From Shinisaurus crocodilurus (taxonomy: Eukaryota > Chordata > Lepidosauria > Squamata > Shinisauridae): a stretch of DNA of 64,000 bases. Below are positions 1,943-61,018 of the stretch, in pieces. The stretch lies in contig CM037877.1 in the NCBI GenBank assembly GCA_021292165.1, positions 111,312,789-111,376,788 on the forward strand. Reading direction: 5' to 3'. The stretch's first letter is position 1; each line of letters starts with the position of its first letter. The notes beneath the pieces were generated by a model that saw only the letters and a list, made by a program, of their open reading frames with translations, was not told where the DNA came from and searched no databases. A program made the position numbers and the translations under genes.

Positions 1943-3280
1943 CTATGCAGATGTTGTTTGTCCCCTTTGGCATCTGTGGAGACTGGCTGTCTCCCCCCCC
2001 CCGGGTCTCCTTCCCCCCTCCTTGGTGAGTGCGTGTGTGTCAGGCAGGGGGCTTAGGTTGGCTTTCTCCACATCTCCCCCCCGGGGAAAAGATGGCATTG
2101 GGGTCCCACACCCCAATTTCCCATTGACTTGCCCATCACCTGAGAAAGCCCGGGAGAGTGCATCAGCCAGGACATTGTCCTTACCCTTGATGTGCTCAAT
2201 TTCGAAGTCAAAGTCTTGCAGTGCCAGACTCCACCGTAGGAGTTTTTGGTTGTTGCCCTTGACTCTATCTAACCAGCACAGGGGGGAATGGTCGGTCTGC
2301 AGGCGGAACCGTCTCCCCCAGAGGTAGGGGCGCAACTTGGTGATGGCCCACACCACAGCCAGGCACTCTTTCTCAATGGTGGCAAGACTACGTTCTCTGG
2401 GCAGGAGTTTCTTGCTCAGGTAGGCAACGGGGCGCAGCCCTTCTCCTACCTTCTCCTGTAATAACACCGCCCCCATCCCAGCCTCAGAGGCATCTGTCTG
2501 TAGAACGAAGGGGGATTCGAAGTTTGGGGCTTGCAGAATGGGAGCTGCCGTGAGGCAGGCTTTTAACCCGTCGAAAGCGGTCTGGCAAGCCGCGGTCCAC
2601 TGGACCCTGTTCGGTTGGCGCTTTTTACAAAGATCAGTCAGAGGGGCTGCTAGCTGACTGAAGTGTGGCACAAACTTCCGATAGTACCCCGCAAGTCCCA
2701 GAAAAGTCTGCACCTGTTTTTTGGTTGCGGGTTGGGGCCATTTCTGAACCGACTCTATCTTAGTTTCCATGGGTTTGATGCTCCCCCCTCCGACCCGATG
2801 TCCAAGGTACTCAACTTCCCCTAGCCCCACCTGGCACTTTTTTGCTTTCACTGTCAACCCAGCGTCCCGGATCTGCTGGAAGACCTGCTGGACATGCTGC
2901 AGATGCTGTTCCCAAGTGGAGCTAAAGATAGCTATGTCGTCCAGATAGGCACAGGCAACTTCTCCCAACCCGTTCAGCATTCCATTCATCAGCCTCTGAA
3001 AGGTTGCCGGACCGTTCCGGACTCCGAAGGGAAGAGTGGTGAACTGGAATAAACCCAGGTGTGTGACAAAGGCAGACTTGAGAGCAGCATCCGCGTCCAG
3101 CGGGACTTGCCAGTAGCCCTTGGTGAGGTCTAGGGTGGTAATGTACTTGGCCCTCCCTAGCTTCTCCAGCAAGACATCCATGTTGGGGATGGGGTAGGGG
3201 TCAGGGACGGTCACCTTATTGATTTTCCGATAGTCCACACAGAACCGCACCCCCCCCATCCTTTTTGGCCACCAGGACAA
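1943..3280 (-). pseudogene. Gypsy pol: reverse transcriptase and RNase H
   Basis: This 445-codon open segment starts inside the RT. RT motifs in order are FCVDYRKINK, TTLDLTKGYWQVPL, FGVRNGPATFQRLM and the catalytic YLDD box (AYLDDIAIFS). The thumb is followed by an RNase H domain with FVLQTDASEAGMGAVL, a glutamate in TIEKEC, RLQTDHSPL and DNVLADALSR. RT copies element RNA to DNA and RNase H removes the RNA strand. The start codon is an artefact of a frameshift; the true frame continues from the upstream segment ending at 3216. After RNase H the frame runs to a stop without integrase, confirming that integrase lies on the other side. Confidence 0.85.
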
Positions 3281-4205
3281 TCGGGGAGGACCATGGGCTA
3301 GAACTAGGAACGATCACCCCTAGGTCTAACATGGCTTTGACTTCCTCTGCAATGACCTGAACGTGGGGTCCCACCGCCCGGTATGGCAGAGATTGCAGAG
3401 GGGGGCTGTCACCCATTTGAATGGTGTGCTGGATGAGTGGGGTCCGCCCGGGGCGGTCTGTGAACATGGTCCCAAATTCATCCAGCACCCGCTTCATTTG
3501 CTCCCGCTGAGCCTCGGACAGGGCGGGTGACAGTGAAATTTCTTCCATCCCCCCGCCATCCCCCCATTCTCCCAACAGATCCCCATCAGCGAAATCCTTA
3601 TCATTGTGTTCCTTCACACAGCCTACTCCCACACTCCGGTCCACATATAATTTCAACATATTCACATGAAACACTTTACATTTTTCAGGAGTCCTGGCAA
3701 AGAGTATTCTGTAGTTGACTGGTCTAAGTTTCTCAACTACAGTCTCCGGACCCTCCCACTTAAGACACAGCTTGTCTGTTTTGAGGGTACGCAGAACCAA
3801 TACTTTATCACCCACTTCAAAAGTCCGGGCTACTGCGGTTTTATCATACAGCTCCTTTTGCCGCTGCTGGGCTGCCTTCAGATGCTGTTGGGCGGCTTCT
3901 TGAACGCTGTGGAGGGTGTCCCGTAGCCGCCGCAGAAAAGTGTGAACCGGCACGGGCGAACTGTCGGCAGCCCCCTCCCACTCCTCCCGCAACAAAGCCA
4001 AGGGCCCCTGTAGTTCTCTGCCAAACATCAGTTCATTCGGGGAAAACCCGAGGCTTTCCTGAGGAGCATCCCGGTAGGCAAAGAGGAGGTAGGGTAGGGC
4101 TTGGTCCCAAGTTCCCGGGTGACGGCTAGCGTACGCCCGGATCATTTCCCCCAAAGTCTGGTTGAAGCGTTCAACCAGTCCGCTGGTCTCGTGGTGGTAA
4201 GGCAC
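3216..4205 (-). pseudogene. Gypsy pol: C-terminal integrase core, linker and start of RT
   Basis: The segment opens with the integrase motif HHETSGLVERFNQTL, carrying the catalytic glutamate, then a region typical of chromoviral-type integrases (FAYRDAPQESLGFSPNELMFGR). A linker leads into the N-terminal RT (SLPYRAVGP, VKAMLDLGVIVPSSSPWSSP, VLVAKKDGG). Integrase and RT thus sit in one frame with integrase first, which is the direct evidence for the unusual domain order. The frame breaks at a run of eight C (3250-3257) where the RT should continue into RFCVDYRKIN. Confidence 0.85.
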
Positions 4206-4218
4206 CGAAGTTACATGG

Positions 4219-4650
4219 TCAACCCCCCCCCCACATCTTCTGGAACAGTTTAGACATGAACCCGGTGCCGCAGTCCGACACGACCATGCGGGGCATTCCT
4301 AAGCGGGCAAAGAGAGAGAGCAGAGTCTTAGCCAGGCTGGCTGCAGAGATGGAGGCTAGCGCAAAAGCCTCCGCGTAGTGGGTGGCAAAGTCCACTACCG
4401 TCAGTACAAACTTCTTCCCTGTCTTGGTGGGCGGGTTCAGGGGACCCACTATGTCCATAGCAATCTGTTCAAAAGGGATCCCCACCACTGGAAAAGGCTG
4501 AAGGGGAGCTCTTGGGTGATCGTGATTGAGTCCCACCCGCTGGCACACATCGCAGGACCGACAGTAAGCTTTAATGTCGGAGGCGATCATGGGCCAGTAG
4601 AACCCCTCTGTGATTCGAGCTTGGGTCCGCTTCTGCCCCAGGTGTCCTCC
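4219..4650 (-). pseudogene. Gypsy integrase: HHCC zinc region end and catalytic core
   Basis: Visible motifs are CRSCDVCQ (the cysteines of the HHCC zinc finger), AMDIVGPL (first catalytic Asp) and VVSDCGTGFMS (second catalytic Asp). The frame is open from an in-frame stop at about 4648-4650 to a run of ten C (4223-4232), where it shifts out of phase with the following segment containing the catalytic Glu. Integrase would insert the cDNA copy into host DNA. Confidence 0.8.
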
Positions 4651-5007
4651 TCATGCCACGTCATGGGCGAGGTGCAGCACGGCGCGGCGGTACCATTGGG
4701 GAACCACCAGTTGCCTTTGCTTGCGCCCCGGTGCCACTTCCCCCTTTGGCTCGAACTCCCGGTACAAAGTTCCATTGTCCCAGACAAATTTTTCGGTGGC
4801 AAGGGATACCCCGGGGTCTTGGTTGGCCAGTTCGCGACACTCCTGCAAGGAAGGGTCCAGCCGCTGGGCTTCCTTGAATTGGGCTTGAGTCCCAAAGTCT
4901 TTAGCCATCTGGGCAAACCCTTCATCCTTCGGGGGCTCCGCTATGGCCTGGTTCTCCCCGGAGTGCCCCGCAAGGGATGGGGTCACCCCGGTTGGTGGAG
5001 GGGGCAC
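4651..5007 (-). pseudogene. Gypsy pol: region between protease and integrase zinc finger
   Basis: The open segment ends with VVPQWYRRAVLHLAHDVA and an in-frame TGA. The two histidines of the integrase HHCC motif (LHLAHD) lie just before the stop and its cysteines just after, in the same frame, so one nonsense change separates them. The N-terminal half has no motif I can name. Confidence 0.65.
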
Positions 5008-5099
5008 GGGCTTAGGCTTTGGGACCGGTGCGGTTACGGGCGGCCCCCCTCTTCTTGCCTATCCCCGGGTGACGACCCCCATCTTAGCTTTGGCCACCC

Positions 5100-12009: not shown

Positions 12010-12107
12010 TCTTTCTCGAGTCCAACCCCCTGCTCAATGCAGGAAACTAGAGGAGAGGTCTCCCATCCAAGTAATAACCAGGCTTGACACATACGATATA
12101 GCAAGCT
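12010..12107 (-). mobile_element. 5S-rRNA-headed SINE with CR1-like tail, fragment
   Basis: On the minus strand CCTGGTTATTACTTGGATGG matches the internal promoter region of vertebrate 5S rRNA. It is followed by TTGAGCAGGGGGTTGGACTC, a CR1-type 3' end. A longer copy with the same fusion lies at 43457-43640. It sits inside the large hAT element. Confidence 0.6.
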
Positions 12108-12330
12108 GTAAATTTTTTGTGCTAATGCAGATTCAACACAGGACTCATTCTTAATACAGCAGAAGTTGAAGGAGTAGAGAATTTGCTCCTACAAACACTG
12201 TGCTTCAGGCTAAATACAGCTAAGTTTCTCCTGGTACTGCACACAGTTTCTTCTGGAACTACCTATATAGAAAGTTCACATTTAGAAAGCTCCTCCAACT
12301 TTGGTGCGAAACAGAAAGAAATCCCTACGT

Positions 12331-12466
12331 CAGCCTCCCCCAACCTGGTGCTCCCCAGATGGGTTGGGTTGCAACTTCCATCATTCCCAACCAGCATCAC
12401 CATGCTGGCTGAGAATGATGGGAACCGCAGTCCAACCCATCTGAAGGGCTAGGTTAGGGAAGTCTG
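12331..12466. mobile_element. Palindromic hAT MITE, decayed
   Basis: It begins CAGCCTCCCCCAACCTGG and ends GGTTAGGGAAGTCTG, with a nearly self-complementary interior. The flanking octamers match at only 5 of 8 positions. Confidence 0.65.
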
Positions 12467-12849
12467 CTGTAAGTACACACATGACCAAACTGCTGGTGGT
12501 AGAGCGCTCTCATCTATCATCCTACCAAGCAGCCAGCAGGGTTTGACCACCCTTCAGGTGCCAACGTGTGCCCAGATGGCTGTCCATAGGAGCTTGCTTG
12601 CATTCTGCTTACAGCTGATCAGTTCCAGACCCTGCTGGTCAGGATGCTGACAAAGGCCCAGTGCCAACAGGTGGAGGAGGAGGAATGGGAGCAAGAGAGC
12701 CCAATGGAGAGAAACAACCAAAGCTAGGAAAACAGCCAAACTCAGAGGACAGACACCTGAAGCACAACCTCCTTTTACAGGCTTTCTTGGGGCCGGGCCA
12801 TCTGGGGATCAGCCCTCACGTTAAGAATGATCACCTCTAGACCCTAGGG

Positions 12850-12987
12850 CAGTCTTCCCCAACCTGGTGCCCTTCAGATGTTCTGGACCACGTCCCAGCA
12901 TTCCTAACCATTGGCCATGCTGGCTGAGGCTGATGGGAGTTGACATCCAACACATCCAGAGGGCACCAGGTGGTGCGGGGGAGCCTG
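12850..12987. mobile_element. Palindromic hAT MITE, decayed
   Basis: It begins CAGTCTTCCCCAACCTGG and holds the inverted copy GGGCACCAGGTGG near its right end. No clear TSD remains. Confidence 0.65.
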
Positions 12988-13551
12988 TCCAATGGCATGT
13001 TTACCAGGAAGCAAGTCTCACAGAGCTCAGTGGGTACAAAGAAGCCCATACAGAGGCAGCACACTTGTTCCCAGATTTGCAAAATGGTCAGCTACCAGGT
13101 ACACAAGTGGCCCAAGGTCTCAGAGGCTGCCCCCTGCTCTGAACTCCCAGCTCAGCCCCGTGAACTGAGGCAGCAAAGGCATGCTGGGCATCTTCTCACA
13201 GGCCCATCTCCTCCATCTACCTGCCCAGGAACAAGACAATTTGGCCTGATTATCCGCTGGAGCCCTTTAGAGATGGACCCGGCTGCGTTCGTTTTCCTGC
13301 TCCTCACTCAAAGCTCCGGAGGATTTCCCCTGGCAAGAGCCCCCGGCAGGGCGCCTGCTTTGTTCGGTAGCACGTCCAGGCAAGAAGGGAGAACTTCTTT
13401 CCGGCAGCACGTCCAGGCAGGGAAAGCCCCCTCTCTTTCCGGGGCTCCGGGGAGCTGCCAGTCCAAGGGCGGGCTTCAGCAGGGGCAGGCAAGCCAGGGC
13501 TTTAAACTACAGCTTCCAGCCAGGGATGCTGGGAGCTGTAGTCCCTTAGAG

Positions 13552-13852
13552 CAGCCTCCCCCAACCCGGCGCCCTCCAGTTGCCTAGTTCCACCCTCTGC
13601 TGCAATGTGCCTGCCAAGAGCCTTCCCAAATTAGAATTTGGCCCATGGGCCAAAAATGGTTTCCTACCCCTGCTTTAGGAGATACTGATTTCCTTATGGT
13701 ATAATGCAGGGCTCTCCAACCTTGGGTCCCCAGATGTTACTGGCCTACAGCTCCCAGAATCCCTTGCCATTTGGCCGCAGCTTCCGGGCTGCCTGGGGAT
13801 GATGGGGGTCGCAGTCCCACACAGCCGAGGGGCACCAGGTCGGGGAAGGCCG
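13552..13852. mobile_element. hAT MITE split by an inverted 192-bp insert
   Basis: The left part (CAGCCTCCCCCAACCCGG, 13552-13579) and the right part (from 13772, ending GGGGCACCAGGTCGGGG) are the two sides of one MITE. Between them lies 13580-13771, identical to the reverse complement of 14997-15188. Confidence 0.65.
13580..13771 (-). repeat. 192-bp perfect inverted copy of 14997-15188 (left arm)
   Basis: Base-by-base comparison shows no differences over 192 bp between this segment and the complement of 14997-15188. It contains half of the MITE at 14936-15061, that element's TSD, intervening DNA and the start of the element at 15096. The complete versions exist only at the right-hand site, so this arm is the derived copy. 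Confidence 0.95.
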
Positions 13853-15069: not shown

Positions 15070-15188
15070 CATAAGGAAATCAGTATCTCCTAAAGCAGGG
15101 GTAGGAAACCATTTTTGGCCCATGGGCCAAATTCTAATTTGGGAAGGCTCTTGGCAGGCACATTGCAGCAGAGGGTGGAACTAGGCAA
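14997..15188 (+). repeat. 192-bp perfect inverted repeat (right arm, source)
   Basis: This is the source copy for 13580-13771. It spans the right half of one hAT MITE, its TSD, 18 bp of intervening DNA and the first 93 bp of the next element. Confidence 0.95.
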
Positions 15189-25537: not shown

Positions 25538-25761
25538 TAGTCGTTGGGTTCTTCTCTTCTCTCTCTTCGGAGTCGTATAGCTGAGTTTGTTCTTCTTTTA
25601 ATACTATATCCAAAACTTTTCTCTCAGAAATCTTTCTATTCTCGATTCTCTTTCAATCTATAACTTCATTCCCCCCCCAAAAAAAATCTTCAAAAAAATC
25701 CTTACTATATCCTCATCTCTCCCCCATTCTTATCCTCCTATTGTCTAATCTTCTTCTAATA

Positions 25762-25935
25762 ATGCCTCTTAAGGCAGCCTTTCAGAAGTGCCAGCAATGT
25801 GGAATGAAAATCCCACCCGCTGACAAACACCCGCTGTGCTTGCTCTGCCTGGGGCAAGAACATAAAATGGAGTCCTGCCAGCACTGCCAGGCCTTTACAA
25901 AACAGGCCCCAAAACACCGCCAAACCAAGCTGTGA
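25762..25935 (+). pseudogene. DIRS gag-like N-terminus with CxxC zinc motifs
   Basis: A frame starting at ATG 25762 encodes about 58 residues with three CxxC pairs (KCQQCGMK, LCLLCLGQEH, SCQHCQAF), a plausible zinc-binding module near the start of DIRS ORF1. It ends in TGA; related decayed coding follows in other frames to the SINE insertion. Gag would package the element RNA. Confidence 0.55.
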
Positions 25936-26485
25936 GCTCTCCTCTGGGAGCAGTCTCTGTCAGCGAAAGGTCCTACTCCGGAGGAGAGACCTGGGGGATC
26001 TCAGGTAGCCAAAAAGCCATCGAAATCGCAGGACACTTCGACGGCTAAAAAATTGGCTAAGAAGGCCCACGAAGACAAAACAGAATGTCTTAAAAGGAAA
26101 ATGGCGGAGAAAGGCGGTGAAGACGCTGGACCATCAACTTCTACCACCATGGTGGTCTCAGAGCGAACTGCTCTGTTTATGACGGCTGTGACTGAGGCTC
26201 GGGATCGAGCTACAGGACCGATTGCCCACCAGTCCCCTCCGGCCTCAACAACGTCTCCTAGAGGCCAAGAGTCGGGTTCGAAAACCCCAATAAAACAGCC
26301 ACCAACTGCAGCCACCTTCCTGTCGGAAGGAGAAATTGTGGCTTCGCCGCTGTTGAAGTGACCTCGTTCGGGCTCGAGAGGTCCTCCACCACGTCTATCA
26401 CCTCCTACAGCATATGCTAGAGAGGAACAGATGGAACATTGCCGATCACGGTCTCCTCGATACCGGAGACGTGATTCACCACTAC

Positions 26486-26730
26486 GCCAGTGTGGCGTAG
26501 TGGTGAGAGTGTTGGACTGGGACTCAGGAAATCCAGGTTCAAATCCCCGCTCAGCCATGAAACTCACTGGGTGACTTTGGGCCAGTCACTGCCTCTCAGC
26601 CTAACCTACCTCACAGGGTTGTTGTGAGGATAAAATGGAGAGGAGAAGGAGGATTATGTAAGCCGCCTTGAGTTCCTTGCAGGAAAAAAGACGGGGTATA
26701 AATGTAATAAAATAAAAAATAAATAAAAAT
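26486..26730 (+). mobile_element. tRNA-headed squamate SINE inserted in DIRS gag
   Basis: The head GCCAGTGTGGCGTAGTGG with GGTTCAAATCCCCGCTCAGC gives pol III boxes. The body contains CTAACCTACCTCACAGGGTT; the tail is GGGGTATAAATGTAATAAAA. It interrupts the DIRS ORF1 between arginine-rich coding on both sides. No convincing TSD was found. Confidence 0.85.
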
Positions 26731-26777
26731 CCACCTCTCGGTCTGTCTACTCGCGCCACCGAGATGACAGGTCTTGG

Positions 26778-27818
26778 TTGGGCTCCTACTATTCGGAATC
26801 GAGATCAAGGAGTTACCGATCCCGATCCCAAGGCTCTCCAGACCGGAGAAGACCAGACTATTATTATCGCCGCCACCAACGCTTGCCCTCTCGGGATCAA
26901 CGCCATAGCCGCAGATCCAGGACACCTACACCGCGACGGGATACAGCTGTGTCCCGCGTGCCCACCGAGACCGTCACACAACCTACTGCCTCGACATCGA
27001 CCGCTCAGTCAGTTTTTGTGCCTGCTGCTGCGGTTCACTCCTTGTCGGGATCGGCGTATGTGTCGGACTCAGACTCGGTGGTCTCCTCCTCCCATTCCAC
27101 TTCCCCAGATGAACAGGTGGAATCTAAGGAAGCGATCTCCCCATCAGAGGACATGGGGAGTTTCGCTGAGCATGTCAACTGGATGGTGACAGCTCTGGGA
27201 GTCGAGGCAAAAATGGCAAAGGGGAAAGCAAAAGACGATATATATGCTATCCTGAAGACCACCCAGTCCAACCATCTGCTCCTTCCTTTCTTGCCAACAT
27301 TGCTGGAGACGGTGCAAGAAACCTGGAAGGCCCCAGCCTCCACGAAACCGACAGCTAAGAGGCTGGAGTCAATGTACAAGATCCAGGAAGAGGGAGCAAA
27401 GTTTCTGTTTTCCCATCCGACCCCGAACTCGCTCATAGTAAAATCGGCGCAGTCTCGTGGGGGAAAACAGCATACTACGCTGGCAGATAAAGAGGGTAAG
27501 ACATTAGACTCCTATGGCCGTAGGGTCTATTCCTCGTCTTCCCTCGGACTAAAATCTAACTATGAAGCATTGCTAGCTAGATACCAAATGTTCATCACAG
27601 AGAAGCTGGGAGACCTCTGTGATTATCTGCCGGATGACAAGAAGGATCAGGCGGCGCAGTACATCAAAGAGGCAACCAGCATCGGTGCACTACAAATGAA
27701 TACTGTGCGCCACCAGGTCGACAGCCACGCCAGGTCGATGATTGGGTCCATGGTCCTGAGGAGGCACGCCTGGCTTCGCTCTACCAACTTGACTCCCGAT
27801 GAATATGGGGTGGGTTAG
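26778..27818 (+). pseudogene. DIRS gag-like ORF1, main part
   Basis: A 346-codon frame begins with an Arg/Ser/Tyr-rich stretch (YRSRSQGSPDRRRPDYYYRR) and continues into a more structured region with KAKDDIYAILKTTQSNH, SYGRRVYSSSSL and DSHARSMIGSMVLRRHAWLR. This organisation is seen in vertebrate DIRS1-like ORF1 proteins, thought to be the gag equivalent. The start follows the SINE insertion and the real frame began upstream. The last codons belong to an L2 insertion (27803-27982); coding resumes near 28000. Confidence 0.65.
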
Positions 27819-27994
27819 GTTTTTAAAAGAATTTTTTATATTGTTTTAATTATTATATTTTATTGTATTGTTTTATTGTATTGTTTTATTGTATTTTAAT
27901 TGTACATCGCCCAGGGTGGCCGGGTGGCCGGCCAGATGGGCGATTAATAAATATAATAAATAAATAAATAAATAAATAAATAGACTCCCGATGA
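27791..27994 (+). mobile_element. L2 LINE 3' end inserted in DIRS, 12-bp TSD
   Basis: The 180-bp insert (27803-27982) has ATCGCCCAGGGTGGCCGGG, CAGATGGGCG and an AATA/AATAAA tail. It is flanked by GACTCCCGATGA at 27791-27802 and 27983-27994. Confidence 0.85.
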
Positions 27995-27999
27995 TAGAG

Positions 28000-28320
28000 C
28001 GAAGATTGAAGACCTCCCATTTGATGGAGAGTAGTTATTCAATGCCACTACGGATGACTCCCTAGACTCCGCTCAGAAGGCTTTGGCAACGGCCAAGAAG
28101 ATGGGGCTCGTCCACCAACAACCACCGCAGCCCTTCAGGCCAAGACGCTGGTCTCGGTTCCCATACCCATCTACCCAATATCAGCCATCGGGTCAAGGTA
28201 GGGGTGGGAACCACCGACCTCGTGCCTCACAGCCGCAAGCACCGCAGCACTCTTATACCCAGCAGCGGTCCAGGGGCTCCAGGAGAGGAGGCGACTTTGG
28301 CCATCGGTGTCTTTGACTCC
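28000..28320 (+). pseudogene. DIRS ORF1 C-terminal part
   Basis: After the L2 insertion the frame carries KALATAKKMGLVHQQ followed by a Pro/Arg/Gln-rich tail (PFRPRRWSRFPYPS). A stop at 28036 breaks it. It overlaps the region where the RT frame begins. Confidence 0.5.
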
Positions 28321-28429
28321 TTCACCAGCCCGACCGAACTGTCTCCACCACTTCAATCAGCTCTCAACGCCACTATTCCAACCGCCATGTCTCCTCCACC
28401 TCAGACAACTCTCTTCGGCTCCCGACTTT

Positions 28430-29316
28430 GGCAACACCTTCGATCCTGGAGGAACATCACGATGGATCGCTGGGTGTTAAGCATCATCGAGCACGGCTAC
28501 AGGATTGAATTCAGAGTCCTCCCTCCCTTTCTCGGCATCAAGACCACCCGTCCAACTCGAGTGCTCTTGGAGGAAGTATCAACCCTCCTACAGAAAGGGG
28601 CGATACAACCGGTTCCCGCAGAAAACTTGGAAGACGGTCTATACTCCAGGTACTTCATAGAAGAAAAAGGGAGGACTCAGACCGATCCTGGACCTTTGCA
28701 CTGTGAACCTCTTCATTCCACCGAAGAGATTCCGTATGGTCACACTCCAATCAATCCTGCTTCTACTTCGAAGGAACAATTGGTTTGCATCCATCGACCT
28801 CAAGGACGCATACTTTCACGTCGCCATCCACAAGGGCAGTCAGAAATACCTTCGGTTTCGAGTGGGGGACGACACCTACCAATTCGTCGTTCTTCCTTTC
28901 GGTCTCTCCACCGCACCGAGGGTATTCACAAAGTCATGGCGGTGGTGTGTGCAAGTCTACGGGCAAGAGGAATCACAGTCTTCCCATATCTAGACGACTG
29001 GTTGCTGGTGGCATCGTTGAGACTGGAGCTTCAACACGCACTAGGAGAAACCCTCCACTTCCTAGACGAGTTGGGACTCTGTCTGAACATGGAGAAGTCA
29101 GTCCTTCAACCAGTGAAGGAGATACAATACATCGGCGCAAGACTAAGCACGTTTGATGGTCGGGCATACCTACCAAACGACAGGGTGCAAAGTATACTTA
29201 CCCTTGCAAAAAAGGTCTTCAAACAACCAGTTTGCTCAGCTCACACGGTTCAACGCCTCCTAGGGCACATGGCCTCGACGATTGCGGTCGTACGATATGC
29301 GAGACTTCGCATGTGA
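28430..29316 (+). pseudogene. DIRS reverse transcriptase
   Basis: The N-terminal part (TRVLLEEVSTLLQKGAIQPV, GLYSRYF) is in one frame. NWFASIDLKDAYFHVAIH with the first catalytic Asp and FVVLPFGLSTAPRVFTK lie in another frame (28703-28980). The frame then returns for VFPYLDDWLLVAS, which holds the catalytic YLDD. Two frameshifts (near 28680 and 28975) and a TGA at 29314 disrupt it. The stop and the next one near 29374 lie where CGA codons are expected, consistent with CpG decay. RT copies the element RNA. Confidence 0.8.
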
Positions 29317-30261
29317 CCCCTACAAACCTGGTTTATCAGAAACTTCAAACCAGAAAAAGACAAACCATCCATCTGATTGAACCTTCCACAAGCCGTAAGA
29401 GAGTCTTTGGGGTGGTGGCAGCAGGAGTCGAACCTGACTGGAGGCGTACCATTTCATCCTCCGATACCGACCCGCATATTGACGATGGACGCGTCGCTGC
29501 TGGGATGGGGGCCCCACTCCGATGACCACGTCGTGCAAGGCACATGGACGTCGACACAAAGCATCAAACATATCAATTGGCTGGAACTGATGGCCGTTTG
29601 GAAAGCACTACAAGCCTTGGAGCAACATCTCTCGGGCTGCCACATCCAAGTTGTGACTGACAATACCACGGTGGTCGCGTACATAAACAAGCAAGGCGGC
29701 AAGAAATCGACCCGCCTCACACGGCTGACTCTGCAACTCTACGAATGGGCTCTACCTCGAAGAATGTCTTTCGTAGCAATTCACATCGTAGGGAAGTCCA
29801 ATGTGCTGGCAGACACATTGAGCCATGTGTCAATGCAGTTGCACGAGTGGAAACTGGACAGGAAAGTAGTCAATTCACTGTTCCAACGTTGGGGTCGTCC
29901 AAAAATAGACTTATTCGCCACCAGCGAGAACATGGCCTGCTCCATATTCTGCAGCAGGGCTGCCTCGGATCCGAATTCGATCACCGACGCTTTCCTGATG
30001 GATTGGAGCAACGACTTTTACTACCTGTTCCCTCCAATTCCACTTCTGACGCGTGTACTCACCAAAGTATCTCAGGACAGTACCAACTGCATTCTGATAT
30101 CCCCGTGGTGGCCATGTCAACCCTGGTTTTCACGCCTAAGCCTTTCGCAGGGAGATTATCTCCCATTACCACTTCAAGACAATCTATTAACACAACACAA
30201 AGGCAAAGTGCTTCATCCCAATCTACATTCCCTGACCCTTATGGCTTGGAGGATCAGATAA
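29317..30261 (+). pseudogene. DIRS RNase H and following domain
   Basis: In the same frame as the end of RT, RNase H residues are visible: LTMDASLLGWG (Asp), INWLELMAVWKAL (Glu), VVTDNTTVVAYI (Asp) and KSNVLADTLSH (Asp). A further segment (PKIDLFATSENMACSIFCSR to LISPWWPCQPWFS) is the conserved post-RNase-H region of DIRS pol, sometimes assigned to a methyltransferase-like domain. The frame is open from 29377 and overlaps the recombinase frame at its end. Confidence 0.75.
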
Positions 30262-31277
30262 CAAAAGATACAGACCTCTCCGCTGCTGTGAAAGAGGTTC
30301 TATTGGCAGCACGAAAGCCCTCCACGAGGCTCTCCTATGCCAGAAAATGGGCAGCTTTCACCAATTTTGTATCGTCCTTGGGCAGAGATCCTATTACATG
30401 CTCGATCTCAACCGTCCTCGATTTTCTCCATTCACTGATGACCCGTGGCCTTAAATTCTCTTCAATTAAAGTATATCTAGCTGCGTTAACAGCGTATAGA
30501 ACTACTTCGACTGGGACATCTTTGTTTGTGCATCCGTTAGTGAAACAATTTTTGAAAGGTTTTAGAAATCTACGACCCCCAATCCGAAACATGGTACCGG
30601 GTTGGGACCTCCCGTTGGTCTTGAAAGCCTTGACGAAATCTCCATTCGAGCCCATGGTGAAAGCAGACTTATGCCTAGTATCATTTAAAACATTATTTCT
30701 AATAGCAATTACATCAGCAAGACAAGTCAGTGAGCTGCGTGCTCTCAGAATAGATCCCCCTTACACGATTTTCCATAAGGACAAAGTCGTTCTAAGGCCA
30801 GATATAACTTTTTTACCCAAGGTGGTTTCTGAATTTCACCTGGAACAGGACGTTATTCTTCCTACTTTCTTTTCGTCTCCATCATCACCGGCTGAAAGAT
30901 CAATGCACAACCTCGATGTCTGTCGGGCACTGCTTTTCTACCAGGCCCGCACGGAGTCGATAAGGAAAACCCAGCAACTTTTTGTGTGTTAAGGTCCTCC
31001 GAAATTGGGCTATCCAGTATCGAAACAGAGACTGTCCTCCTGGATAGTAGACACTATCAAACTTGCGTATCAACTTGCTAAAAGCACTCTGCCAGGATCC
31101 GTAAGAGCTCATTCTACCAGAGCTCTGTCGACCTCGACAGCATTCGGGAGAGGGATCTCCTTGCCGGACCTATGCAGGGCAGCAACTTGGTCTACTCCCT
31201 CCACTTTTATCCGACACTACTGCCTCGACGTTCGAGCCAGGGCGCAGAACGCATTCGGATCTTCGATCACCATCTGA
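30150..31277 (+). pseudogene. DIRS tyrosine recombinase
   Basis: The frame carries a SAM-like N-terminal domain (STRLSYARKWAAFTNF, SSIKVYLAALTAY) and a catalytic domain with ITSARQVSELRAL (first Arg), HSTRALSTS (His-x-x-Arg) and TFIRHYCLDV (nucleophilic Tyr). The only visible break is an in-frame TAA at 30990-30992; before and after it the frame is the same and open to 31277. The enzyme inserts the circular cDNA by site-specific recombination, in place of an integrase. Confidence 0.85.
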
Positions 31278-34112: not shown

Positions 34113-35831
34113 CAGGTGGATCCACAATTGGCTACAGAATCGGACTCAAAGAGTGCTTGTCAATGCTACCTTCTCAAACGGGGGAGAGGTAACGAGCGGG
34201 ATAGTAGTAGGCGATCATTCGTGACCGAGTAAGATTGTCTTCCAGGATAAAATTATAAAAGGAGGAAATTCTAAAAAATTGTGTAGACTCTAGCGATGGG
34301 TCCGTAAGTGACTGTGGAGGCCAATTCTAGATCCACACAGCTTCCCACAGTGAGGACACAGGTTACCAGATGGAAGATGGTCCTGTAAAGGATTTGTTTG
34401 ACGTGCTTTTCGCTTAGCACGTTTCTCCCTTTCACCTTGCACTTGGGCTTCTTCAAAGTTCATGGAACCTCCATTTAGATCGTTCATAGGCCAGAGCTTC
34501 CCATTTTTCAATGTTTATATTGCATTTTTTTTTTTAGATTAGTCTTAAAAACATCTTTAAACCCTTTATACTGACCACCAATATTCCGCTTTCCATCCTT
34601 TAGTTGGGAATAAAGTAACTGCTTTGGGAGACGGCAGTCAGACATTCGAACAACATGACCGGTCCATTGAAGTTGGCGTTGTAGTATCATTTTTTCAATG
34701 CTAGTAGTCTTTGCTTCTTCCAGTACACTGACATTTGTTCGCCTATCTTCCCAAGTAATTCGCAGGATTTTCCGGAGGCAACGTTGATGAAATCTTTCAA
34801 GGAGGTGTAAATGATGTTTATAGATAGTCCATGTTTCGCAGGCATACAGTAAAGTTGGTAATACAATGGCTTCATAAACCAGCGTTTTAGTCTTCTTACA
34901 GATATCCCGATCCTCGAACACTCTATGTTTCATTTGAGAAAATGCGGCACTTGCGAAGCTCAAACTATGCTGGATTTCACTGTCAATGTTAGCTGTAACG
35001 AGCGGGGTACCACAGGGCTCGGTCCTGGGCCAGTGCTCTTCAACATTTTTATTAATGACTTGGATGAGGAGGTGCAGGGAATGCTTATCAAATTTGCAGA
35101 TGACACAAAGTTGGGTAGAACAGCTAATACTCTGGAAGACAGAAACAAAATTCAAAGCAATCTCGATAGGCTGGAGCGCTGGGCTTGGGCCAAAAACAAC
35201 AGAATGAAATTTAATAGGGATAAATGCCAAGTGATGCACCTAGGGAAAGGAAACCAAATGCAGAGTTACAGAATGGGGGACACTTGGCTCAACAATACTA
35301 CAAGTGAAAAGGATCTTGGAATTGTTGTAGATCACAAGCTGAATATGAGCCAGCAATGTGATGTGACTGCAAAGAAGGCAAATGCTATTTTGGGCTGCAT
35401 TAATAGAAGTATAGCGTCCAAATCGCATGAAGTGATAATTCCCCTTTACTCAGCACTGGTTAGGCCTCATCTTGAGTACTGCGTCCAGTTCTGGGCACCA
35501 CACTTTAAGAAGGACGTAGACAAACTGGAGAGGGTTCAGAGGAGGGCAACAAGGATGATTAAGGGACTGGAAACAAGGTCCTATGAGGAGAAACTGAAAT
35601 AACTGGGCGTGTTTAGCCTTCAGAAGAGGAGACTGAGGGGAGATATGATAGCACTCTTCCAGTACTTTAAGGGCTGTCACAAAGAGGAGGGCCAGGATCT
35701 CTTCTCGATCATCCCAGTTTGCAGGACACGGAATATTGAACTCAAGTTACAGGAACCCAGATTCCACCTAAACATCAGAAAAAATTTCCTGACTGTTAAA
35801 GCAATAAGATAATGGAACCAACTACCTAGGG
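34113..35831 (+). pseudogene. CR1 ORF2 reverse transcriptase remnant (two blocks)
   Basis: Block one encodes IRWIHNWLQNRTQRVLVN and GGEVTSG. Block two encodes VTSGVPQGSVLG, then in a shifted frame VLFNIFINDLDEEVQ, LIKFADDTKLG (catalytic FADD), DKCQVMHLGKGNQ, DLGIVVDHKLNMSQQC, RPHLEYCVQFWAP and RRLRGDMIALFQYFKG. These are CR1 RT palm, thumb and C-terminal motifs. A frameshift near 35025 and stops at 35600 and 35810 inactivate it. Confidence 0.9.
34189..35006 (-). mobile_element. 5'-truncated Vingi-like LINE inserted in CR1, 12-bp TSD
   Basis: The insert (34201-34994) corresponds to the last 0.8 kb of the element at 57612-61007. The minus strand encodes the C-terminal segment with RMSDCRLPKQLLYSQL and a final CPHCGKLCGSRIGL zinc finger. 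It is flanked by GTAACGAGCGGG (34189-34200 and 34995-35006). At the truncated end the LINE itself reads AGCTGTAAC, so GTAAC is shared with the target, a microhomology junction. The 3' tail is a short CTA repeat. Confidence 0.9.
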
Positions 35832-35928
35832 CAGGGGTCGGCAACCCGCGGCTCCGGAGCCGCATGCGGCTCTTTCAAGCCTTTGCCGCGGCTCCGCTCC
35901 GGCAGCAGGGACAGGAGCGTGAGAGAAG

Positions 35929-36084
35929 ATGGCGGCCCGCGGCGCCTCTGCGAAGCGTGGAGCCGGGTCCGGGGGCTCTCGGGGGTCCGAGCCCCAAGAG
36001 GAGCCGCCTCCACCGCTCCAGGCCGTGCTGGTCGCCGACAGCTTCAACCGCCGCTTCTTCCCCATTTCCAAGGACCGGCCCCGG
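35929..36084 (+). pseudogene. EIF2B5: Captured exon 1 of EIF2B5 (eIF2B epsilon)
   Basis: From ATG 35929 the frame encodes 52 residues: a Gly/Ser/Ala-rich start ([16 protein letters not shown]), [16 protein letters not shown] and [13 protein letters not shown]. This matches the N-terminus of vertebrate eIF2B epsilon, the catalytic subunit of the guanine nucleotide exchange factor that recharges eIF2 in translation initiation. The frame is intact and is followed at once by GTGAGT (36085-36090), a good splice donor. No exon 2 follows, and hAT termini and TSD enclose it. I infer DNA-level capture of the first exon with part of intron 1, not the working gene. Confidence 0.85.
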
Positions 36085-36668
36085 GTGAGTGACGGGCAGG
36101 CGGCGGAGGGGGATGCGGGCAGCTGCCGCCGAAGGCCTCGGCCTCCTCCCTTCGTTCTCCGCCGGGGAGGCGCTTTCGGTCTTCGGCGAGCTGTAGCGCT
36201 TCTGCAAAAAGCGCCTCCCCGGCGGAGAACGAAGGGAGGAGGCCGAGGCCTCCAACCGCCGCTTCTTCCCCATTTCCAAGGACCGGCCCCGGGTGAGCGA
36301 CGGGCAGGCGGCGGAGGGGGATGCGGGCAGCTGCCGCCGAAGGCCTCGGCCTCCTCCCTTCGTTCTCCGCCGGGGAGGCGCTTCCTGCAGAAGCGCTACA
36401 GCTCGCCGAAGACCGAAAGCGCCTCCCCGGCGGAGAACGAAGGGAGGAGGCCGAGGCCTCCAACCGCCGCTTCTTCCCCATTTCCAAGGACCGGCCCCGG
36501 GTGAGCGACTGGGCAGGCGGCGGAGGGGGATGCGGGCAGCTGCCGCCGAAGGCCTCGGCCTCCTCCCTTCAGTTCTCCGCCGGGGAGGCGCTTTCGGTCT
36601 TCGGCAAGCTGTAGCGCTTCTGCAGAAAGCGCCTCCCCGGCGGAGAACGAAGGGAGGAGGCCGAGGCC
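36043..36668. repeat. Three tandem 208-bp units with hairpins, from EIF2B5 exon/intron
   Basis: Units start at 36043, 36251 and 36459. Each begins with the last 42 bp of exon 1 (CAACCGCCGCTTCTTCCCC), crosses the donor, then has a hairpin with about 42-bp GC-rich arms (GCCTCGGCCTCCTCCCTTCG and complement). The loop is in one orientation in units 1 and 3 and inverted in unit 2. After unit 3 the palindrome extends to about 36713. Confidence 0.9.
36085..36090 (+). promoter_or_regulatory. Retained EIF2B5 exon 1 splice donor
   Basis: GTGAGT follows codon 52. Units 2 and 3 of the tandem array carry the same position as GTGAGC (near 36291 and 36500), so up to three donors are present. Confidence 0.7.
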
Positions 36669-37624
36669 GAGGCCTTCGGCGGCAGCTGCCCGCATCCCCC
36701 TCCGCCACAAATCCCTTTTGCTCATATATAAAGCAGGGGCCAGTTCTGGGCAGCATTTGAATTGAAATCCACTCCTTCCTTGCCAGCCACCTCTTCGTGC
36801 CTTGCCTCCAGTTAGGCTTGCCAGGATATTCTCCATGTTTAGACATGAAAAAAATCCTACAACTCCCAGCATGATAGCTGGGGCATCCCGGGAGATGTAG
36901 GACTTTTCCCCTGTCTTAACATGCATTGCACCCTAACATGCATTGCACTTTACTTCTTGCAAGGAACCCAAGGCAACTTACATAGTCCTCCTCCTCCTCC
37001 TCCTCCATCTCCATTTTATCCTCACAACAACCCTGTGAGGTAGGTTATGCTGAGAGTCAGGGACTCTTATAATGTTCCCCCTCCCATTTTATAATGTTCC
37101 CCCTCCCATCCCCGCAGCGATATTGTAATTTGTGTTTTATTCTTCTTTATAACCTGTTTTGGATTGTTTTTAAGAAATGCAGGGTTAAAAAAGCAGTTAA
37201 TAAATAAATAAATTTATGGAGATATAATTTTGTTCTATTGCTATTAGTTTTCCAATAATTTGTACATGAATACATGATCCTGTATATATAGCATTAAGGT
37301 AAGAAACAATATATGCAGTGTTATATTTGTTTTAAATGTCACAATGGTTTTGCGGCTCCCAGGTTTTTTTTTCCTTCGGAAACGGGTCCAAGTGGCTCTT
37401 TTTGTCTTAAAGGTTGCAGACCCATGATCCTAGGGAGGTGGTGGGCTCTCTCACTCTGGAGGCATTCAAGGTGCAGCTGGACGGCCATCTGTCAGGGATG
37501 CTTTGACCTGGATTCCTGCATTGAGCAGGGGGTTGGACTCAATGGCCTTGTAGGCCCCTTCCAACTCAACTTTTCTATGATTCTATGATCTCCCCCCCTG
37601 CTGGTTATTATTAACATATTATAG

Positions 37625-57600: not shown

Positions 57601-60600
57601 ACACATCTGCTCATCATCATCAGGCGATCACTCGTGACCGAGTAAGATTGTCTTCCGGGATAAAAGGAGGAAATTCTAAAGAAGATTGTGTAGACTCTAG
57701 CGATGGGTCCGTAAGTGACTGTGGAGGCCAATTCTAGATCCACACAGCTTCCCACAGTGAGGACACAGGTTACCAGATAGAAGATGGTCCTGTAAAGGAT
57801 TCATTTGACGTGCTTTTCGCTTAGCACGTTTCTCCCTTTCACCTTGCACTCGGGCTTCTTCAAAGTCCATGGAACCTTTGTGAAAGGCCAACCTCCATTT
57901 AGATCGTTCATGGGCCAGAGCTTCCCAGTTTTCGATGTTTATATTGCATTTTTTTTGATTAGCCTTATGAACATCTTTAAACCTCTTATATTGACCACCG
58001 ATATTCCGCTTTCCATCCTTGAGTTGGGAGTAAAGTAACTGCTTTGGGAGACGGCAGTCAGGCATTCGAACAACATGACCGGTCCACTGAAGTTGGCGTT
58101 GAAGGATCATTTTTTCAATGCTAGTAGTCTTTGCTTCTTCCAGTACACTGACATTTGTTCGCCTATCTTCCCAAGTAATTTGCAGGATTTTCCGGAGGCA
58201 ACGTTGATGAAACCTTTCAAGGAGGTGGAAGTGACGTTTATAGATAGTCCATGTTTCGCAGGCATACAATAAAGTTGGTAATACAATGGCTTCATAAACC
58301 AGTGTTTTGGTCTTCTTACAAATATCCCGATCCTCGAACACTCTATGTTTCATTCGAGAAAATGCGGCACTTGCGGAGCTCAGACGATGCTGGATTTCAC
58401 TGTCGATGTTAGCTGTAACAGAAAGATAGCTGCCAAGATAGAGAAAATGATCGACATTTTCCAGTATTGTCCCGCCAAGCTGGATAGATGGCATCACCAA
58501 AGGATTGGCTTGCACTTGCTGATGAAGCACTTTGGTTTTTTTGATGTTAAGTGAGAGACCAAGTTTTTCGTATGCTTCTGCAAAAGCATTTAGGATAGTT
58601 TGGAGATCATCCTCTGAATGTGCAGAGACCACATTATCATCAGCATACTGAAGTTCCACAACGGAGGTTGTAATTACCTTACTTTTTGCTTTCAGCCTGC
58701 TGAGATTAAAAAGCTTTCCATCTGTTCGATATATAATTCCCACACCGGTGGGAAGTTTCCCCTTGACAAGATGTAAAACCATGGCGATGAAAATGGCAAA
58801 TAATGTTGGGGCGATAACACATCCCTGTTTAACACCTGATCCCACTTTAAATGGAGCACCATGAGAGCCGTTGTTGTCCAAAACTGTTGCCGTCATGTTG
58901 TCATGGAGAAGTCGCAAGATATTCACAAATTTATTGGGGCATCCAATTTTCATAAGGATAGTCCAGAGAGCTGTACGATCTACAGTATCAAAGGCCTTAG
59001 CCAAATCAATAAATGCCATATAAAGGGGTTGATTTTGCTCCTGGCATTTTTCTTGGAGCTGACGTGCAGTAAAAATCATGTCTACTGTCCCTCTAGAGGG
59101 GCGGAAACCATATTGAGTTTCAGGGAGGATCTCTTCTGAAATAGATAGAAGACGGTTTGCGAGAATCCTAGCAAATATTTTACCTGCGGTTGCTAAGAGA
59201 GAAATGCCCCGATAGTTTCCACAGTCTGTTCTATCACCCTTCTTAAAGAGGGTGATAATTATGGCATCCCTGAAGTCTTCTGGGATCTCTTCTCTTATCC
59301 AGATTTTTTCAATGAGTTTATGAAGATGTTGTACAAGTTCGGGGCCCCCTTCTTTAAAGATTTCAGCAGGAATCCCATCTGGTCCACTAGCTTTGTTGTT
59401 CTTCATTTGATTAATGGCTTTTTTTACTTCATCCAAAGTGGGGAGTATTGCAAGTTCCTCTTTAATTTGTTTTTGCGGGATTTGCGAAAAAATCTCATTA
59501 TCCACCTTAGATTTACGATTTAAAAGGTCATAATAATGCTCTTTCCAACGCAGTGCAATAGACTCTTTGTCTTTTAAGAGTTTGGTGCCATCTTTTGATT
59601 GTAAAGGGTTTGTACCATAGGTTTTTGGTCCATAAATGGCCCTTGTGGCCTTAAAAAAGCCCCGTGCATCATGAGATTCTGCAAGTTGTTGAATTTCTTC
59701 AGCTTTCTTTTTCCACCAAGCGTTCTTAAGTTCTCTTGTTCTTCTTTGGACCTCAGCCTTTGCGCTAGCGTAGGTTTTTTTCTTGGCAGCGCAGTTAATA
59801 TCATTTTGCCATATTTGGAAGGCTTTCCTTTTTTGGTCAATTATATATTTAATCTCATTGTCATTTTCATCAAACCAATCCTGATGTTTCTTAGTTTCAT
59901 ATCCAATAGTTTGTTCACAAGCTGCAGTAATGGAGGTTTTCAGCTTAGACCAATGGTCCTCAATGTTGTCAGGAGGTTCCGTAGGTAGATGTTCCTTAAG
60001 AAGTGATTGAAGACGAGTTTGCTTAATAGGATCTTGAAGGACTTGGATGTTCATTTTACGCCTTGGTTTCCTTCCTTGAAGCCTACGTTGGGGAGCAGTG
60101 TTGATAACCATTGTGGAACGGATTAGTCGGTGGTCTGTCCAGCAGTCGTCGGCACTCACCATGGCCCTAGTAAGAAGTACATCGCGGCGATCTCTAACAC
60201 GGACAATTACATAATCCAGAAGATGCCAGTGCTTTGACCGTGGGTGCTGCCATGATGTTTTAAACTTATTCTTTTGTCGAAAGAGCGTGTTTGTGATAGT
60301 GAGATTATGCTCTGCACATATAGACAAAAGTAAGAGTCCGTTCGGGTTGCTATTACCAACTCCGTCTTTTCCAATAGTTTCTGGCCATAAATCAAAGTCA
60401 CGCCCGACTCTTGCGTTAAAATCGCCCAGGAGGATAATTTTATCCTCCTTAGGTATCTCTGACAGGAGAGTGTCCAACTGGCTATAAAAACTTTCCTTGA
60501 TGTCATCATCAGCATCTAATGTTGGTGCATAAGCGCTCAAAATAGTTACCTGTTGGTTATTGGCGAGCTTTAATCGAAGAGTTATCAGGCGTTCGTTAAT

Positions 60601-61018
60601 GCCAGTAGGAACTTCTGACAAAGAGTTCACTAGTTCATTTTTGATGGCAAAGCCTACACCATGTATTCGTCGGTCCTGCTCAGGTAGTCCTTTCCAGAAG
60701 AAGGTATAACCTCCTTTTTCTTCTTTCAGCTGTCCCTCTCCTGCCCTTCGAGTTTCTTGAAGTGCTGCTATGTCAATCTTAAACCGTCTCAGCTCCCTTG
60801 CAATAATAGCAGTCCTACGCTCAGGGCGTTCACTATCTATGTTATCCAGCAATGTCCGTATATTCCATGTTCCAAAATTCAAATGTCTTTTTCGACCGCT
60901 AAAATGGTGACCCCACTGGACGCGGTAATCCAGTCAGGGGAGAAAGAGGTAGACTATGTTTAGGGCACCTTTTCTAGCCCCCTCCCCATACGGGGTGAGC
61001 AGAGTGGACACATCTGCT
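57601..61018 (-). mobile_element. Full-length Vingi-like (Ingi-related) non-LTR retrotransposon, 11-bp TSD
   Basis: The element (57612-61007) has a 125-bp 5' UTR, a single uninterrupted ORF, a short 3' UTR and a TGA-type trinucleotide 3' tail (57612-57620). It is flanked by ACACATCTGCT at 57601-57611 and 61008-61018. The intact ORF and intact TSD suggest recent insertion. The C-terminal C2H2 finger and single ORF favour the Ingi/Vingi group; RTE-type elements have a similar C-terminal region and are the main alternative. Confidence 0.85.
57697..60882 (-). CDS. Endonuclease-reverse transcriptase of the Vingi-like LINE
   Basis: The 1061-codon ORF has no stop or frameshift. The N-terminal 235 residues or so are an APE-type endonuclease: FGTWNIRTLLD, IAALQETRRAGEGQ, SAYAPT, LLGDFNARVG and a terminal DDCWTDHRLIRS with the catalytic Asp-His. 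The RT lies at about 470-800 with SLLATAGKIFARILANRLL, YGFRPSRGTVDMIF, MAFIDLAKAFDTVD, GVKQGCVIAPTLF and the catalytic YADD (LQYADDNVV). A C-terminal region follows (LLYACETWTIY, RLPKQLLYSQL) and a CX2CX12HX3H zinc finger (C1040, C1043, H1056, H1060) at the extreme end. No RNase H was seen. The enzyme nicks target DNA and primes cDNA synthesis there. It may be able to act, and could mobilise SINEs sharing its 3' end. Confidence 0.9.
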   Translation of the reverse strand: MNFGTWNIRTLLDNIDSERPERRTAIIARELRRFKIDIAALQETRRAGEGQLKEEKGGYTFFWKGLPEQDRRIHGVGFAIKNELVNSLSEVPTGINERLITLRLKLANNQQVTILSAYAPTLDADDDIKESFYSQLDTLLSEIPKEDKIILLGDFNARVGRDFDLWPETIGKDGVGNSNPNGLLLLSICAEHNLTITNTLFRQKNKFKTSWQHPRSKHWHLLDYVIVRVRDRRDVLLTRAMVSADDCWTDHRLIRSTMVINTAPQRRLQGRKPRRKMNIQVLQDPIKQTRLQSLLKEHLPTEPPDNIEDHWSKLKTSITAACEQTIGYETKKHQDWFDENDNEIKYIIDQKRKAFQIWQNDINCAAKKKTYASAKAEVQRRTRELKNAWWKKKAEEIQQLAESHDARGFFKATRAIYGPKTYGTNPLQSKDGTKLLKDKESIALRWKEHYYDLLNRKSKVDNEIFSQIPQKQIKEELAILPTLDEVKKAINQMKNNKASGPDGIPAEIFKEGGPELVQHLHKLIEKIWIREEIPEDFRDAIIITLFKKGDRTDCGNYRGISLLATAGKIFARILANRLLSISEEILPETQYGFRPSRGTVDMIFTARQLQEKCQEQNQPLYMAFIDLAKAFDTVDRTALWTILMKIGCPNKFVNILRLLHDNMTATVLDNNGSHGAPFKVGSGVKQGCVIAPTLFAIFIAMVLHLVKGKLPTGVGIIYRTDGKLFNLSRLKAKSKVITTSVVELQYADDNVVSAHSEDDLQTILNAFAEAYEKLGLSLNIKKTKVLHQQVQANPLVMPSIQLGGTILENVDHFLYLGSYLSVTANIDSEIQHRLSSASAAFSRMKHRVFEDRDICKKTKTLVYEAIVLPTLLYACETWTIYKRHFHLLERFHQRCLRKILQITWEDRRTNVSVLEEAKTTSIEKMILQRQLQWTGHVVRMPDCRLPKQLLYSQLKDGKRNIGGQYKRFKDVHKANQKKCNINIENWEALAHERSKWRLAFHKGSMDFEEARVQGEREKRAKRKARQMNPLQDHLLSGNLCPHCGKLCGSRIGLHSHLRTHR

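Follow-up and report, generated by a model that had tools for sequence, protein, structure and literature searches.

In the genome of the squamate Shinisaurus crocodilurus, a non-autonomous hAT element with Buster-type target sites has almost certainly captured exon 1 of EIF2B5, with its splice donor and part of intron 1, as DNA, and presumably owes its multiplication to transposase supplied in trans. The observations behind this are the termini of the element, target-site duplications at independent sites, the equivalent of an empty site, a separate parent gene, near-identical copies and a second carrier family. We call the family of this element B and the second carrier, also a hAT family, A. 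The window, that is, the whole stretch of DNA that we analysed, comprises 64,000 nucleotides (C2:111312789-111376788 in the 2.19-Gb assembly GCA_021292165.1, CM037877.1, forward strand). Its family B element is 1,595 bp long (35832-37426) and is nested inside a LINE copy, which we take to be a CR1-type LINE end. The features are, in window coordinates:

35824-35831 (+): left target-site duplication ACCTAGGG, read from the sequence and from uninterrupted LINE copies
35832-35916 (+): left hAT end, a 15-bp terminal repeat CAGGGGTCGGCAACC with subterminal sequence; no match in the parent EIF2B5
35917-36214 (+): EIF2B5-derived block 1, comprising 12 nt of 5′UTR, exon 1 and the first part of intron 1, with 99% identity to C3:11784259-11784556
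35929-36084 (+): EIF2B5 exon 1, intact, 52 codons, encoding the same protein as the parent exon
36045-36668 (+): about three copies of a 208-bp unit, each with the exon-1 tail, a donor and a partly inverted intron start
36085-36090 (+): splice donor GTGAGT; GTGAGC in the parent and in older copies
36293 and 36501 (+): extra donors
36728-36936 (+): EIF2B5-derived block 2 (further intron 1), 95% identical to C3:11784566-11784769
36949-37075 (+): SINE-like block, about 87% alike in element A; parent intron 1 contains a related repeat
37412-37426 (-): right hAT terminal repeat, CATGGGTCTGCAACC when read on the minus strand
37427-37435 (+): right target-site duplication ATCCTAGGG, with one extra base

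The ends of the element are those of a hAT. It has short terminal inverted repeats of 15 bp, and its right end terminates in GGTTGCAGACCCATG, opposite CAGGGGTCGGCAACC at the left; 13 of the 15 letters are paired in the window element and all 15 in the older copies L025 and L033. It is also flanked by the 8-bp duplication of hATs, the window copy having one extra base. Both the inverted termini and the duplication with a one-base indel (ACCTAGGG versus ATCCTAGGG), as described in a previous sequence-only reading, are real. When the flanks of the element were joined and compared with fetched loci, the host LINE was found uninterrupted in the EIF2B5 region across the insertion point at five places (L047 and L053 being the same place as L056). 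ACCTAGGGAGG was exact at one of them and differed by one letter at the other four, and the 8-mer of the duplication, or its one-letter variant, was single in these copies. The uninterrupted LINE copies are the equivalent of an empty site.

Other repeats were observed in the same window. An open frame of 1078 codons at 57700-60933 (-) presumably corresponds to a LINE second ORF, and we take the open frames at 1946-5058 (-) and 25585-30989 (+) to resemble a gypsy-type pol and another reverse transcriptase-bearing retroelement, respectively. Two CAGGGGTAGGAAACC sites facing apart, at 13658-13672 (-) and 15096-15110 (+), are possibly the ends of two other hAT-like repeats.

The open reading frame at 35929-36084 spans 52 codons and matches human eIF2B epsilon with an E value of 3.2e-16; it stops at the donor, the junction from 36085 reading CGG/GTGAGT. 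The sequence-only reading was borne out in both respects, that is, an intact frame like the eIF2B epsilon N-terminus and its end at a GTGAGT donor. Its assumption of one donor was wrong: three donors are present because the 208-bp unit is repeated.

The parent gene lies elsewhere, on C3. Parent exon 1, at C3:11784271, encodes the same 52 residues and continues with CGG/GTGAGC, and exon 2 follows about 6.6 kb past it. A query of 404 residues of human eIF2B epsilon after exon 1, which covers the protein up to its last part, gave eight matches with all ten candidates scored; all were in order and confined to C3:11790895-11802406. For these residues, no match to exon 2 or later exons was found downstream of the element. 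The parental stretch represented in family B extends over C3:11784242-11784769, so that the element holds host sequence with an identifiable parent, as in a Pack-TIR, and the long-form B copies that we compared begin at parent position 11784242. This parental DNA consists of about 30 nt of 5′UTR, exon 1 and some 340 nt of intron 1, collinear between B and the parent and 94-99% identical; for the window element, comparison with genomic exon 1 and intron 1 gave the 99% and 95% identical blocks on C3 listed above. Since the intron and the 5′UTR are collinear with the parent, the capture took place at the level of DNA and not of mRNA, as had been proposed. An exon 1 that is present and in frame could also be expected from an EIF2B5 retrocopy or a local gene duplication that acquired its hAT ends by chance. 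We consider this origin practically negligible and rejected both retrocopy and segmental duplication, because intron and donor are kept, exons 2 onward match only on C3, and the same ends and duplications are found on copies across many chromosomes. Within the 30 kb of the parent region that were read, none of the family B ends was matched. Parent intron 1 contains a palindromic repeat (CTACAACTCCCAGCATGATAGCTGGGG...) at C3:11784600-11784769, with weaker matches elsewhere in the parent region.

Family B is multicopy. A 22-letter query for the exon-1 start, allowing up to two mismatches, matched the genome 117 times (54 forward, 63 reverse; reversed control, 0), with some matches on small contigs, a count that may include assembly duplicates or second haplotypes. 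One match is the parent and 116 are others. Neither outcome that would have refuted the sequence-only reading was observed: EIF2B5 exon 2 in the right order downstream of the element, or a lack of other copies with these termini. We read 67 of the 117 matches, namely the parent, the window, 39 in 38 first-fetched regions and 26 in later places. Besides the window element, the first-fetched regions yielded 38 B copies that have both ends (two of them at L026, none at L032, where the left end is missing). Perfect 8-bp target duplications flank 21 of these 38 copies, against a chance expectation of about 0.0006 (38/4^8). Their consensus is nnCTAGnn, with T at position 4 in 20 of the 21 and A at position 5 in 20 of the 21. 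Among the 17 copies without a perfect duplication, several differ by small indels and some are wholly unmatched. Four further B places were fetched at 3 kb: duplications were perfect at L058 and L060 and not at L063, and at L059 no right end was found within the fetched 3-kb stretch. No pair of B left flanks was more than 40/60 alike; family B is thus multicopy with distinct duplications, as expected of a Pack-TIR. For TcBuster, 8-bp duplications with TA in the middle and a target consensus of nnnTAnnn are reported (PMC3499496). The B target fits nnnTAnnn, and family B is of Buster type by its target sites; no transposase was found in it or assigned to it.

The copies differ little from each other. 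Over the roughly 695 nt of the 3′ part, substitutions relative to the majority sequence ranged from 0 to 1.29% (median 0.07%), figures that count substitutions only, leave indels aside and are biased towards youth because the copies were those that match the window best. The set comprised 38 sequences, including the window and without L035, which holds a nested piece, and half of them (19/38) had no substitution at all. Many substitution-free copies at unrelated places cannot be old, and on this evidence the B burst is very recent; it suggests that a hAT was recently, and is perhaps still, active in this vertebrate. Five copies (L016, L025, L030, L033 and L040) are about 1-1.3% diverged; their 5′ form is the long one, and their donor is GTGAGC. 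At L026 (C1:113939719-113948856), two inverted B copies about 2 kb apart have an exon substitution in common, perhaps owing to a local jump or an inverted duplication. L035 (C2:211577701-211583046) is a B copy with a second, inverted piece of family B inside.

Variation within family B is concentrated in its 5′ part and its donors. Eight of the 39 sequences have a long 5′ form with 329-352 nt before the ATG and 30 a short form with 97-100 nt, which seems to have arisen from the long one by deletion; in L010 the left end is shortened to 79 nt before the ATG. The 208-bp unit of exon tail, donor and partly inverted intron start varies in number, giving 1-8 donors per B copy. Since the 19 copies without 3′ substitution have 1, 2, 3, 4, 5, 6 or 8 donors, the donor array seems to change faster than single bases.

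Exon 1 is carried by family A as well. The 26 later places, a non-random set taken from the exact-match list either sequentially or by hand, and with their ends mostly unread, include 13 of type A. Six of the places were fetched at 3 kb (four family B and two A, L061 and L062), and 20 were short stretches, comprising nine of family B (five long form, four short) and 11 of type A, nine called by motif and two by reading upstream sequence. The following A copies were located:

C4:130768750: L061
C5:146627290: L062
C3:110862000: L084

Across some 2.8 kb, L061 and L062 are 97% identical; the parental segment in both spans about 12127 to 13406 (coordinates of the parent-region comparison). Family A ends are CAGGGCCGGATTAAG/CTTAATCCGGCCCTG, and the perfect duplications of these two copies are GGATATAA and AGAGTAAG. 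L084, which is the L082 place read over a greater length, has A ends, the duplication ACTAGAAC and parent positions 12041-13406 in one stretch, making it the most complete carrier among the places read. Duplications were perfect at all three A places with both ends read (L061, L062 and L084). The EIF2B5 cargo of A amounts to 1.3-1.4 kb; besides exon 1, it includes promoter-proximal DNA and roughly 1 kb of intron 1. In 11 of the 13 A places the exon contains a frameshifting insertion of 7 nt, which is absent from L070 and L082.

A copies differ by about 3-4% in two comparisons, whereas young B copies differ by almost nothing, and A looks older than B. Relative to the parent, A and B have in common a TTGAA insertion and three substitutions (12595, 12615, 12622 and 12742 in the coordinates of this comparison), and they share sequence just past the parental match. 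Because A looks older, B probably received the exon from an A-like element. Alternatively, A and B captured the exon independently from an older EIF2B5 allele, and the shared differences are later changes of the parent; we regard this as possible, yet not as the probable course. Without an outgroup, TTGAA and the other shared differences can indeed be placed on the parent branch, and the main A group has its private 7-nt insertion, which B lacks. However, a single capture followed by a transfer is more likely than the same exon having been taken up twice, and since the A-type copies L070 and L082 are free of the insertion, an A-like donor for B does exist. The B block at 36949-37075 also runs into sequence that A has and that the fetched parent lacks there, an argument that is weak because the block is partly repeat.

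With a transfer from an A-like element to B, we infer the following course. Replication-linked template switching may first have moved 1.3-1.4 kb of EIF2B5 into an A-like hAT, and part of this cargo would then have passed into family B ends. A deletion of about 240 nt in the 5′ part of B would have followed, then the gain of the donor-bearing repeat with its varying number of units and a very recent amplification, the copies presumably multiplying via transposase supplied in trans.

Candidate sources of transposase are abundant in the genome. A search for the hAT dimerisation domain (PF05699) gave 7321 first-look candidates, with frames of up to 1154 aa among the 150 scored. Several matches lie in open frames of more than 800 codons with near-equal scores, for example at C5:132954300-132958600 and C3:114100200-114104500, which suggests that autonomous hATs were recently active. 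L086 encodes 852 residues with PF14291 and PF05699, and has an A-like CAGGGCCGGTGCAAG downstream of the frame, three letters off the family A end; L085 encodes 856 residues. Both were examined as transposase partners of B; in the 4.3 kb read at each, no B ends were present, and a simple scan of their surroundings for paired ends with duplications yielded none. At the two transposase loci read, no autonomous partner with B ends was located.

Pack-MULEs and Helitrons, which belong to other superfamilies, are mobile elements that carry host exons. In a survey of 100 animal reference genomes, 370 Pack-TIRs were reported, only four of them multicopy (Tan et al. 2021, PMC8277862). The survey also lists Pack-MULEs as carriers of host exons and shows that capture by vertebrate hATs, at low copy number, has already been published. 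Animal Pack-type captures by DNA transposons are mostly known in single copy. The multicopy Pack-TIRs are the closest known systems, in particular Pack-hAT-N8_XT of the western clawed frog, which holds 291 bp of CAPSL 5′UTR in three copies on three chromosomes (PMC8277862). With it, family B shares hAT ends, a 5′ piece of a gene, distant sites and differing duplications, and given this common plan B might be viewed as an ordinary low-copy Pack-TIR with nothing special in its spread. Such a view is very improbable: B carries a coding first exon with a donor instead of a 5′UTR, 116 exon-1 matches besides the parent stand against three copies, amplification was very recent, and S. crocodilurus has two carrier hAT families and a donor-bearing repeat array. 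Like B, Ssk-FB4 of Drosophila melanogaster is a multicopy capture of coding sequence by a TIR element; however, it reportedly comprises a nearly whole gene at three loci in fly lines, with protein evidence and positive selection (PMC8277862), whereas B comprises one exon with no sign of selection. Turmoil-1 of C. elegans is likewise an animal transposable element with host coding sequence, but its coding sequences reportedly sit in the inverted terminal repeats, unlike those of B (PMC2572040). Among the matches listed in the literature searched, Tan et al. was the close precedent, the Turmoil-1 paper being more distant, and none combined EIF2B5 and transposon capture in one paper.

Could the mobile exon do more than travel? 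Its ATG, frame and donor might be spliced onto neighbouring genes, and the resulting EIF2B5-headed fusions would have consequences for host or element. Of 39 B sequences (window included), 37 keep an intact frame as far as the GTGAG donor, for which youth alone is a sufficient explanation. The first donor is GTGAGT in 31 of the 39, nearer the usual donor consensus than the parental GTGAGC, but C-to-T changes at CpG sites, of which this is one, are common mutations. Up to eight donors per copy would fit such a role, as would the CpG observed/expected ratio of 0.91 in 35832-36720 versus 0.38 for the window. The CpG-rich 5′ region of the earlier reading consists mostly of hAT sequence and array, EIF2B5 contributing only 12 nt ahead of the ATG in this element. 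We looked for purifying selection on the 156-nt exon in 38 copies and saw none. Taking these copies as ungapped, we counted 30 substitutions, 26 of them distinct (2 of the 30 stem from L014, whose exon lacks 1 base near its end). Nonsynonymous and synonymous changes numbered 23 and 7, near the neutral expectation of about 69:31 under a simple weighting of transitions and CpG sites, and 20 of the 30 touch a CpG. Furthermore, because only 12-29 nt of parental DNA lie upstream of the ATG in family B, a promoter is probably absent. The parental CCGGAAGCGGAAG stretch, which we take to be ETS-like, falls outside B, and L061 and L062 of family A contain a variant of it. Although the upstream DNA is longer in A, the exon there is frameshifted in 11 of 13 places. 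On balance, we consider a function of this kind unlikely.

At present, the element most likely behaves as a selfish passenger that could now and then serve as a stray first exon. We would also call it rather unlikely, though conceivable, that all of this forms one system, in which the first exon would be shared cargo passed between two hATs and the younger would spread as a cassette of start codon and donor with a changing array, making EIF2B5-headed fusions. If so, B insertions upstream of or inside genes would create EIF2B5-headed fusion transcripts. With the parent, an older carrier and young copies in one genome, capture, transfer, repeat growth and amplification can be ordered and dated, and the more than 100 exon-1 matches offer a natural experiment on whether chimeric genes arise from a mobile first exon.
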